Source of the DNA: Mediterraneibacter catenae
Lineage (GTDB): Bacteria; Bacillota; Clostridia; Lachnospirales; Lachnospiraceae
Direction: 5' to 3'
Length of the DNA stretch: 64,000 bases
Assembly: GCF_008691045.1 (NCBI RefSeq)
Contig: NZ_VMSO01000002.1
Coordinates: 62,001-126,000 of the forward strand
This document shows, piece by piece, positions 21,982-46,688 of the stretch. The first letter of the stretch is position 1; each line of letters begins with the position of its first letter. The notes beneath the pieces are model-generated. The model had not been told where the DNA came from. It was given only the letters and a program-made list of their open reading frames with translations, and searched no databases. Made by a program: the position numbers and the translations under genes.

Positions 21982-22045
21982 GGCTTCAATGCATTTACGC
22001 AGTAAAGTGAATTCAGTTTAAAAATGAATGATGGAGGATATGCAA

Positions 22046-23281
22046 ATGTACGACTTCGATGAGATCATGACAACGGACCAGGAAATTGCCGATGCGATCA
22101 AAGCCGAGATGGAGAGACAGAATTCCCACATTGAGCTGATTGCTTCCGAAAACTGGGTGAGCAAGGCGGTGATGGCCGCCATGGGAAGCCCTTTGACGAA
22201 CAAATATGCGGAGGGATATCCGGGAAAGAGATATTACGGCGGCTGCCAGTGTGTGGACGTAGTGGAAGAACTGGCAAGAGAACGTGCAAAAGAGCTCTTT
22301 GGATGTGAATATGCCAATGTACAGCCGCACTCGGGAGCTCAGGCAAATATGGCGGTGTTCTTTGCGATTCTCGAGCCGGGAGACACTTACATGGGAATGA
22401 ATCTGGATCACGGCGGACATCTGACTCATGGTTCACCGGTCAACATGTCTGGAAAGTATTTCAATGTCGTACCTTACGGTGTCAATGAGGACGGTGTGAT
22501 CGATTACGATAAAGTCCTTGAGATCGCGAAGGAGTGTAAGCCGAAGATGATCGTTGCCGGTGCCAGTGCCTATGCGCGTACCATTGATTTCAAACGTTTC
22601 CGTGAGATCGCGGACGAAATCGGAGCATATCTGATGGTGGATATGGCGCATATTGCAGGTCTCGTGGCAGCAGGTCTTCATCCGAGTCCGATCCCGTATG
22701 CGCACGTAACAACGACTACGACGCACAAGACGCTGAGAGGTCCCCGCGGCGGAATGATCCTCTCCAGCAATGAAATGAACGAGAAGTTCAATTTTAACAA
22801 AGCGGTATTCCCGGGCATCCAGGGCGGACCGCTCATGCATGTGATCGCCGCGAAGGCAGTGTGCTTCAAAGAGGCACTTCAGCCGGAGTTTAAAGAATAT
22901 CAGGCTCAGATCTTAAAGAATGCGAAAGCACTCTGCGAAGGCCTGAAAAAGCGCGGTGTCAAGATTGTATCCGGAGATACGGATAATCATCTGATGCTCG
23001 TGGATCTGACAGAGAAAAATGTAAGCGGAAAAGAGCTCGAAAAGCGTCTGGACGACGCTCACATTACCTGCAACAAGAACACGATCCCAAATGACCCCCG
23101 TTCTCCGTTTGTCACAAGCGGCGTGAGACTTGGAACTCCTGCAGTGACGACCCGCGGCATGAAAGAAGAGGACATGGATAAGATTGCCGAGATCATTGCG
23201 ATGGTAATCGAGAGCGAGGATAACGTAGAAGCAGGAAGAAAGATGGCTGCAGAACTGACGGAGAAATATCCTCTCTGTTAA
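22046..23281 (+). CDS. glyA: Serine hydroxymethyltransferase
   Basis: PLP enzyme that interconverts serine and glycine with tetrahydrofolate, supplying one-carbon units. The 411-residue form begins [12 protein letters not shown]. Family motifs are [27 protein letters not shown] and the PLP lysine in [16 protein letters not shown]. Several ATGs lie close together; 22046 is preferred because GGAGG (22033-22037) is 8 nt upstream. Two giant palindromes follow it. Confidence 0.96.
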
Positions 23282-23311
23282 ATTTCGATTTCTCGTACTG
23301 AGAAAACATCC

Positions 23312-23442
23312 GCCGGGAGGTATGTATTGTTATCGCACACGTTTTCACTCGGTCGCGACGTAACGGTACGTAAGAGCGCAAAAGACGCGCTCTAAGTGCC
23401 GACGCCGCTCCAACGGTGCGTACACAATACATACCTCCCGGC
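23312..23442. repeat. 131-bp palindrome A
   Basis: Perfect 19-bp arms at 23312-23330 and 23424-23442 (GCCGGGAGGTATGTATTGT and its complement). Pairing continues inward with interruptions: CGCAC with GTGCG, CGGTAC with GTGCCG, and a tip GAGCGC-AAAAGAC-GCGCTC (about 23373-23393). The whole would fold as a long hairpin or cruciform. The arm CCGGGAGGTATGTAT resembles the arm of the 7.6-kb element. There is no T-run and no coding frame. Confidence 0.8.
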
Positions 23443-23515
23443 TGCTTTCTTTCCCATTCCGAAAATCAAATTTCAGACGGAAGGAACAAAGCTCCCACTT
23501 CTTTCTGTTTGTATG

Positions 23516-23795
23516 AGGATTTTTCGGATTGGTCTGTTAGTCGATAAACGTCAAAACGGAAGATTACATCCGCTCTGATGCACCTTACGCAGAGGGAGAA
23601 AAAGGTTGAGAACGGCGACTTTGGAAGGAAATTATGAAAAGTTAACACCATTTCCCTGCTTTGTTACTTTGAGTTATTTCCTGTAACCGGAGTCGGAATC
23701 AACCTTTTTCTCCCTCTGCGGACACGTGAGTCAGATTGCTGTATAGTTCTGCGTTTTCGACGTTTTTCGAATTATCCGCCAGTACGAAAAAACCG
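23516..23795. repeat. 280-bp imperfect palindrome B
   Basis: Exact 22-bp arms at 23588-23609 and 23699-23720 sit inside a much longer inverted repeat centred near 23654. Outside them, TCTGATGCAC pairs with a TGAGTCAGA-type partner. CGTCAAAACG (about 23549) pairs with CGTTTTCGACG (about 23751), and the segment 23521-23549 pairs with 23751-23790. The halves look roughly 65-80% complementary by eye. No transposase or clear coding frame is present. Confidence 0.75.
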
Positions 23796-23805
23796 AATTT
23801 TCCAC

Positions 23806-23834
23806 TTTAAATCGGCAAAGTATTATGATATACT
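23806..23834 (+). promoter_or_regulatory. Probable promoter of the paaK-ior operon
   Basis: TTTAAA (23806-23811), 17 bp, TATACT (23829-23834), 40 bp before paaK1. The -35 is weak, so an activator may be needed. Confidence 0.5.
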
Positions 23835-23873: not shown

Positions 23874-25184
23874 ATGATATGGGACAAGGAGGAGACTCTC
23901 CCCAGAGAAGAGATAGAAGCCATCCAGCTTACCAAACTGAAAAATACGGTCCGATACATTTATGACCGTGTGAAACCTTACCGTGATAAGATGGATGCGG
24001 CTGGCGTGAAGCCGGAAGATGTACAGACGCTGAATGATCTGAAGCGCCTGCCTTTTACATATAAATCGGACTTCAGAGACAATTATCCGGACGGACTCTT
24101 TGCAGTGGACAAGAAAGACATCGTGCGCTACCATGCAAGTTCAGGTACGACCGGAAAACCGACTGTGGTCGGATATACAAGAAATGATCTGGACATGTGG
24201 CTCAACAATGTGGCAAGGCTCGCCTGCATGGGCGGCGCCACGGCGGAAGATGTGGCGCAGATTTCATTCGGATACGGTACCTTTACAGGAGCACTCGGAC
24301 TTCATGGGGGTCTTGAGAAGATTGGCGCGTCTGTAATTCCGATGTCCTCCGGAAATACGAACAAACAGATTATGTTTCTTCAGGATATGGGTGTAACACT
24401 TCTTGTGGCAACCCCGTCCTACGCGCTACATCTGGGCGAAGAAATCAGAAGAAGAGGACTTGATCCGTCAAAAGATCTAAAGCTGCATATTGGTCTGTTC
24501 GGCGGTGAGGGTATGACGGAACCGATGCGTAACGAGATGCATAAAGTATGGGGTGACCAGTTTGTCTGTACACAGAACTACGGCATGAGCGAGCTGTGCG
24601 GTCCGGGGGTTGCCGGAGAATGTACAGAATTGTGCGGCATGCATGTCAACGAAGACTGGTTTATCCCGGAGATCATCGATCCGGAGACAGAGGAAGTGCT
24701 CCCGCCGGGAGAACTCGGAGAACTTGTCGTGACATGCCTGGGTAAAGAGGCTCTTCCGCTCGTGAGATACCGGACGGGGGATCTCACAAGGCTTATGTAT
24801 GAGCCGTGTAAATGCGGGCGCACGACGTGCAGGATAGAAAATATTTCAGGACGTGCAGACGATATGCTCGTTATTCGTGGCGTCAATGTATTCCCGACAC
24901 AGATTGAGGAAGTACTCTTTAAGATTGACGAGATTGGTCCGCATTATGAGATACTTGTAGAGAGAAAGAACAGGCTGGATGTCATGACGATCACAGTAGA
25001 ACTGATTGATGACAGACTGCTTGACAGCTATGCGAAGCTGAGCGAACTTGAGAGCAGGATTAAAAAAGCACTGAAGTCGCAGCTGGGTCTGGCAACACAG
25101 ATCAGACTCGTGGCTCCGAATTCTCTTCAGAGATTCGAAGGTAAGGCGAGACGAGTGACAGATTTACGAAAGGATGGTTTATGA
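23874..25184 (+). CDS. paaK: Phenylacetate-CoA ligase family protein 1
   Basis: A 436-residue adenylate-forming enzyme expected to join an aryl acetate to CoA with ATP, or to run in reverse to make ATP. The AMP-binding loop YHASSGTTGKP is at about 86-96. The later motifs QNYGMSELCGPG, LVRYRTGDLTRL and the C-terminal GRADDMLVIRGVNVFPTQIE match PaaK. GGAGGAG precedes the ATG. It is the first gene of a six-gene operon with indolepyruvate oxidoreductase and ACT proteins. The acid substrate cannot be read from sequence. Confidence 0.92.
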   Translation: MIWDKEETLPREEIEAIQLTKLKNTVRYIYDRVKPYRDKMDAAGVKPEDVQTLNDLKRLPFTYKSDFRDNYPDGLFAVDKKDIVRYHASSGTTGKPTVVGYTRNDLDMWLNNVARLACMGGATAEDVAQISFGYGTFTGALGLHGGLEKIGASVIPMSSGNTNKQIMFLQDMGVTLLVATPSYALHLGEEIRRRGLDPSKDLKLHIGLFGGEGMTEPMRNEMHKVWGDQFVCTQNYGMSELCGPGVAGECTELCGMHVNEDWFIPEIIDPETEEVLPPGELGELVVTCLGKEALPLVRYRTGDLTRLMYEPCKCGRTTCRIENISGRADDMLVIRGVNVFPTQIEEVLFKIDEIGPHYEILVERKNRLDVMTITVELIDDRLLDSYAKLSELESRIKKALKSQLGLATQIRLVAPNSLQRFEGKARRVTDLRKDGL

Positions 25185-46413: not shown

Positions 46414-46688
46414 TATGTGGGATAAAAGTAAAGGCTGTGAACGGAAAGAGTAGCAGATTCAGAAGCTCTCAGAGAGAGGATGCCGCCGGCTGAAAGCATC
46501 CTTGTGCAGAGAATATGTGAAGTGCGTCCGGGAGCTGACCCTGTGAAATGCGGAAAAGCCAAAGTAGCAGGGGACGTATTGCATACGTTACATGCTGTCA
46601 GAGTGAAAGAAGAATTTCTTTTAAATAGAGTGGAACCGCGGATATGACTTCGTCTCTTGTTTGAGACGGAGTTATTTTATTCTATAGG
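46414..46688 (+). promoter_or_regulatory. T-box riboswitch, cysteine-specific
   Basis: A leader RNA that reads uncharged tRNA-Cys. The T-box sequence AGAGTGGAACCGCGG is at 46627-46641. Stem I has AGAGTA on the 5' side and a GGATGCCGCCGGCTG apical part. The specifier codon is best read as TGC (Cys) at 46523-46525, followed by the usual GGGAGC-type segment. The terminator follows the T-box. It precedes cysE-cysS, matching the specifier. Confidence 0.88.
46647..46682 (+). terminator. T-box terminator (alternative to antiterminator)
   Basis: ACTTCGTCTC (46647-46656) pairs with GAGACGGAGT (46663-46672), followed by TATTTTATT. The T-box antiterminator would compete with it. Confidence 0.8.

Follow-up and report, generated by a model that had tools for sequence, protein, structure and literature searches.

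A dispersed two-module palindromic element that ends at stop codons in Mediterraneibacter catenae and shares a conserved hairpin with other Lachnospiraceae

What is the long palindrome that lies between glyA and the paaK operon of Mediterraneibacter catenae? In the window, the 64,000-nucleotide stretch of DNA that was analysed, an earlier note had described a 280-bp palindrome at 23516-23795 with a perfect 22-bp inverted repeat at its core. Folding and self-complementarity confirmed that the palindrome is real and that it is a single long hairpin far above chance. The RNA fold of 23500-23810 has an MFE of -117.6 kcal/mol with z = -10, and none of 100 shuffles was as good; the palindrome folded as DNA gave z = -8.8, and its self-complementarity score was 86, whereas 40 windows of 280 bp drawn at random from the same 64 kb averaged 15.3 and reached at most 28. 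The fold z-score, the self-complementarity relative to random windows and the multiple copies in the genome rule out an isolated chance palindrome. The perfect 22-bp inverted repeat exists but it is not the core, its two arms being half-way up the stem with 89 nt between them. Similarly, the extent of 23516-23795 holds for the palindrome but covers only half of an element that runs from about 23280 to 23800, and the first account included neither module A nor the terminal repeats, and did not see that the ends match stop codons. The features of the locus are the following.

22028..23281, + strand: glyA (serine hydroxymethyltransferase; Pfam SHMT, 3.9e-180)
23280..23300, + strand: left terminal inverted repeat AAATTTCGATTTCTCGTACTG (genome consensus AAATTCCGGATTTATC, from aligned copies)
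23303..23451, + strand: module A hairpin; at least 18 other near-complete genome copies, most with 89-94% identity
23312..23440, + strand: module A core (covariance model), conserved across Lachnospiraceae
23452..23535, + strand: linker with a small third hairpin between A and B (whole-element fold)
23517..23794, + strand: module B, the palindrome first reported; about 12 other near-complete copies in the genome
23588..23609, + strand: left arm of the perfect 22-bp inverted repeat (inverted-repeat search)
23645..23647, no strand: apical point of B; an extra stretch of about 76 nt with the motif TGTCTGAGC..GCGAGTT is present here in most other B copies
23699..23720, + strand: right arm of the perfect 22-bp inverted repeat (inverted-repeat search)
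23780..23800, + strand: right terminal inverted repeat CAGTACGAAAAAACCGAATTT, which pairs with the left repeat at 17 of 21 positions
23806..23834, + strand: paaK promoter-like site (TTTAAA, 17 nt, TG then TATACT)
23874..25184, + strand: paaK (AMP-binding ligase; Pfam AMP-binding_C_2, 7.1e-31), first gene of the next operon

The element consists of module A as its left half and module B as its right half, closed by imperfect 21-bp inverted repeats, and the predicted fold of 23279-23812 has several hairpins within one closed structure (MFE -224 kcal/mol, z = -12.5). The arms of module A are a second inverted repeat upstream of the palindrome (23303-23338 with 23416-23451), and the core of this module has a stem, a side hairpin and an apical stem with conserved unpaired bases. 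The window copy of module B is without the roughly 76 nt of apical stem that most other copies have, which we read as a probable deletion in the window copy. If transcribed, a long hairpin RNA is predicted, as the earlier note had it. The TAA stop of glyA at 23279-23281 abuts the element and is kept in orthologues, and the paaK promoter-like site, which is conserved in orthologues that do not have the element, is directly 3' of it. The element spans the distance from the glyA stop to the paaK promoter-like site, with paaK as a co-directional right neighbour. Elsewhere in the window there is a T-box leader at 46428-46660 that scores above the Rfam gathering score.

Module A was found in at least 18 other near-complete and more than 10 partial places in its own genome (3.18 Mb in 63 contigs), and a search of the same genome found module B in about 12 other near-complete places. 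The copies are in unrelated genomic places, and neighbouring genes that are unrelated are what one expects of a dispersed element. Most often modules A and B occur as a pair flanked by terminal inverted repeats with the consensus AAATTCCGGATTTATC, the copies with two ends are about 430 to 910 bp long, and some copies share module A and the ends but have a different right half (for example, loci L078 and L082). Many contig ends of the assembly lie inside the element (C1, C3, C7, C8, C15, C20, C33, C37 and others), and for this reason the elements appear to break short-read assembly. Terminal inverted repeats and many dispersed short non-coding copies, by which MITEs are recognized, are both present, and the dispersed copies bear out the proposal of a repeated, MITE-like structured element without a coding frame. 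The target duplications that were looked for on the same proposal did not appear: in 16 copies there was no consistent target-site duplication, TA or other, and no direct flanking repeat, which counts against the explanation that we favour below. No plasmid or phage matches to the element were found, and a plasmid or phage origin was rejected on this ground.

The ends of the copies coincide with stop codons. Where the upstream sequence was long enough to test a terminal-repeat end, the end was between -6 and +3 nt from the stop codon of an ORF of 80 codons or more in 41 of 45 cases (about 91%); the same was true of 2% of random window positions and of 7% of positions taken from the 150 nt that follow such a stop. 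The stops at the 41 ends are TAA in 31, TGA in 7 and TAG in 3, and the stop codon is often built from the first A bases of the terminal repeat. The stop of the upstream ORF is almost exactly at the left end of the element and in most copies the stop of a convergent gene is at the right end, the gap between the two convergent genes being filled from stop to stop.

At a given locus the sequence between these boundaries differs from species to species. After glyA, one other species (G013) has the same A module, several others (G002, G036, G007, G063 and more) have other palindromic mosaics, and still others (G003 and G018 among them) have no more than a short terminator region. Orthologous gaps at 15 further loci, where both flanks were found, are 60-1036 bp long. 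They contain differing mosaics, among them A modules in inverted orientation and elements in tandem, and the shortest of the gaps (60, 65, 73 and 76 bp) have little beyond a simple hairpin or a remnant. Sequence homology between the species begins again no more than a few bases from the stop codons. The recent origin that had been suggested for the palindrome is too simple because module A is found across the family while each locus turns over between species. It is possible, though doubtful, that these are ancient 3' spacers native to their loci, and that recombination between the shared terminal repeats and modules, not insertion, exchanges their content from one locus to another. That stop-codon boundaries are kept between species while the interior changes, that mosaics, tandem copies and inverted modules are common, and that there is no target duplication would all agree with such swapping. 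However, several loci, and glyA as well, have only a short ordinary spacer in other species, so that gain or loss of the element at a site must be possible; nor is the type of terminal repeat constant at a locus.

Compensatory changes, which the earlier note had asked for, are abundant in both modules. In a MAFFT alignment of 34 copies of module A, 97% of the cells pair and 34 of the 47 pairs have changed on both sides; the covariation score is 0.433 compared to 0.176 for shuffled alignments and at most 0.087 for slid partners. In 17 copies of module B, 96% of the cells pair and there are double changes in 32 of the 88 pairs. The element is thus not a fixed, non-repeated sequence without compensatory changes but a multicopy one that has them. 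Among the mismatches, G-U and A-C are equally common in the A arms (41:46; in a separate count that set aside two G-U-rich pairs, 15 and 31, respectively) and G-U is commoner in module B (74:34). Since a role on one RNA strand predicts an excess of G-U, the A arms point to upkeep at the DNA level or on two strands, and module A looks like a sequence that is maintained in this manner, although the relatedness of the copies limits the mismatch test.

Module A extends well beyond this species. A covariance model of the A core (R1; 130 positions, E-values from a shortened calibration) had matches in 60 of 150 Lachnospiraceae genera represented by one genome each, the query included. Many of the matching genomes have at least 10 copies of A, and outside the genus the E-values go down to 6e-24 with this shortened calibration. 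When sampling was widened to the order, 23 genomes had a match, of which 22 were in Lachnospiraceae; the match in the remaining one was marginal (E = 4e-4, shortened calibration). When the window sequence was aligned with MAFFT to 22 sequences from about 20 other genera, the apical stem, the side hairpin and several unpaired bases were found to be kept, and double changes that were reported to preserve the pairing are present in 23 of the 25 predicted pairs. Outside the genus the A hairpin is intergenic and only sometimes near a stop codon, which counts against the explanation that we favour below. Its neighbours in other genera are unrelated genes, with no transposase among 20 tested, and a regulatory leader of one pathway is ruled out by these unrelated neighbours. 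Neither the element nor its relatives in other genera match any Rfam family, which rules out a known RNA family. Our literature search found nothing specific on these repeats in Lachnospiraceae; a 2021 catalogue of candidate structured RNAs from human microbiomes (PMC8040213) may list the A hairpin.

Some observations were made beside the A hairpins of other genera. In one other Lachnospiraceae genus (G191) the hairpin is in tandem arrays with periods of 187 bp and 137 bp (L321:1411-1975 and L322:3717-3995), and a 17-bp tandem repeat, TTTATGCTGTTCATGCC, is present in 7.6 copies at L322:3507-3636 inside the 3' end of an ORF without a Pfam match. In two genera, A hairpins have another RNA at most about 400 nt away: a TwoAYGGAY RNA that passes the gathering score and a Clostridiales-1 RNA that is below threshold (L332:1133-1299 and L330:1147-1289).

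The findings on module A bear on whether the A hairpin belongs to a structured RNA family, being transcribed and acting as RNA, either as a protein-binding 3' UTR element or as a small RNA, with dispersal being secondary. The fold and the unpaired bases that are conserved across about 20 genera, one pair that is mostly U-A or U-G, and the G-U excess in module B are in its favour. On the other hand, G-U is no commoner than A-C in the A arms, many near-identical copies are beside unrelated genes, both orientations occur at orthologous sites and one genus has tandem A arrays, and we consider this explanation unlikely. More improbable still is a selfish or neutral quasi-palindrome whose arms match by replication template switching and whose placement after stops is only what selection tolerates. 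Hairpins can arise and be kept up by template switching (PMC8794818), and the equal G-U and A-C mismatches fit it. But it does not explain the A-core unpaired bases conserved across genera, and tolerance alone would put roughly 7% of the ends so close to a stop, far fewer than the 41 of 45 that were observed.

Among known systems, the element works most like REP/BIME repeats but fails the tests of size, foot motif and linked RAYT gene. Like REP, REPIN and BIME sequences it is a dispersed palindrome, enriched in 3' intergenic places and often between convergent genes, and forms mosaics of alternating orientation; in GTAG-REPs the end of the repeat often provides neighbouring ORFs with their TAG stop codon (PMC3733652). 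REPs and REPINs are defined by a 20-40 bp palindrome with an unpaired GTAG or CGTC foot (PMC3733652), whereas this element is about 430-910 bp long, does not have this foot, and has 21-bp terminal repeats with both ends fixed to TAA, TGA or TAG. One Y1 transposase was found in the genome, and the palindromes on either side of it are of another kind (GGGGACGTAGT). Its RAYT-like ORF of 284 aa is at L267:1354-2319 (G000:C18), just after a glycyl-tRNA-synthetase-like ORF, and is flanked by inverted GGGGACGTAGTAAAA palindromes, of which there are about 20 further hairpins in the genome. The Y1 gene was rejected as the parent since its flanking palindromes differ from the element and its presence does not track the element-rich species; that no autonomous parent was found counts against the explanation that we favour below. 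A search of the genome with the terminal repeats for an autonomous parent found only these elements, many of them at contig ends, where most of the unpaired terminal-repeat matches are as well. The element is like MITEs in being short, non-coding and multicopy with terminal inverted repeats, but it has no target-site duplication, no full-length parent was found in its own genome, and its sites are stop codons. It has the same position as bidirectional intrinsic terminators, and simple hairpins are in the orthologous gap of some species (L219 and L262), but it is much longer and is repeated in the genome. In a simple scan for a GC-rich hairpin with a U tract, three copies scored at or near chance compared to shuffles, which speaks against a simple intrinsic terminator and also counts against the explanation given next. 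Finally, it has the conserved fold and the many compensatory changes of the structured RNAs in Rfam, but no family match.

The explanation that we favour, with modest confidence, is that this is a non-autonomous mobile element of two palindromic modules, REP-like and MITE-like but of a new family, that has been domesticated to serve genes as their 3' ends; both its transposition and its role in termination are what we infer from the comparisons. We favour it because the copies share their ends, fit stop codons and sit stop to stop between convergent genes, because the content differs at orthologous gaps, because paired changes abound and the A core is family-wide, and because the unrelated neighbouring genes and the mismatches of the A arms fit it. 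Spread of the element may be helped by an enzyme supplied in trans that recognizes the folded single strand, in the way that Y1/HUH-type transposases do with REP-like hairpins. Copies would then land at the terminator region that directly follows a stop codon, or take its place, and would be retained by the host as shared 3' ends, where the hairpin RNA could limit read-through and protect both convergent transcripts. In the window the element would be the 3' end of glyA and would separate glyA from the paaK promoter. Exact replacement from stop to stop is hard to reach by simple transposition, and this counts against the explanation.

If the favoured explanation is extended, these elements could be a new class of mobile cassette that inserts at the stops of convergent genes or replaces the spacer between them by means of an enzyme-recognized hairpin common to the family, and Lachnospiraceae would then continually exchange the 3' ends of their genes; we put this forward only tentatively and think it improbable. 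Coincidence with a stop codon in about 91% of the ends would be a new level of target precision for dispersed bacterial palindromes. The 130-nt A core has a conserved fold in 60 of the 150 sampled genera of a major gut family and yet is absent from Rfam. It offers a direct way to study how DNA hairpins are dispersed when no transposase is obvious, and how one 3' end can serve two convergent genes.
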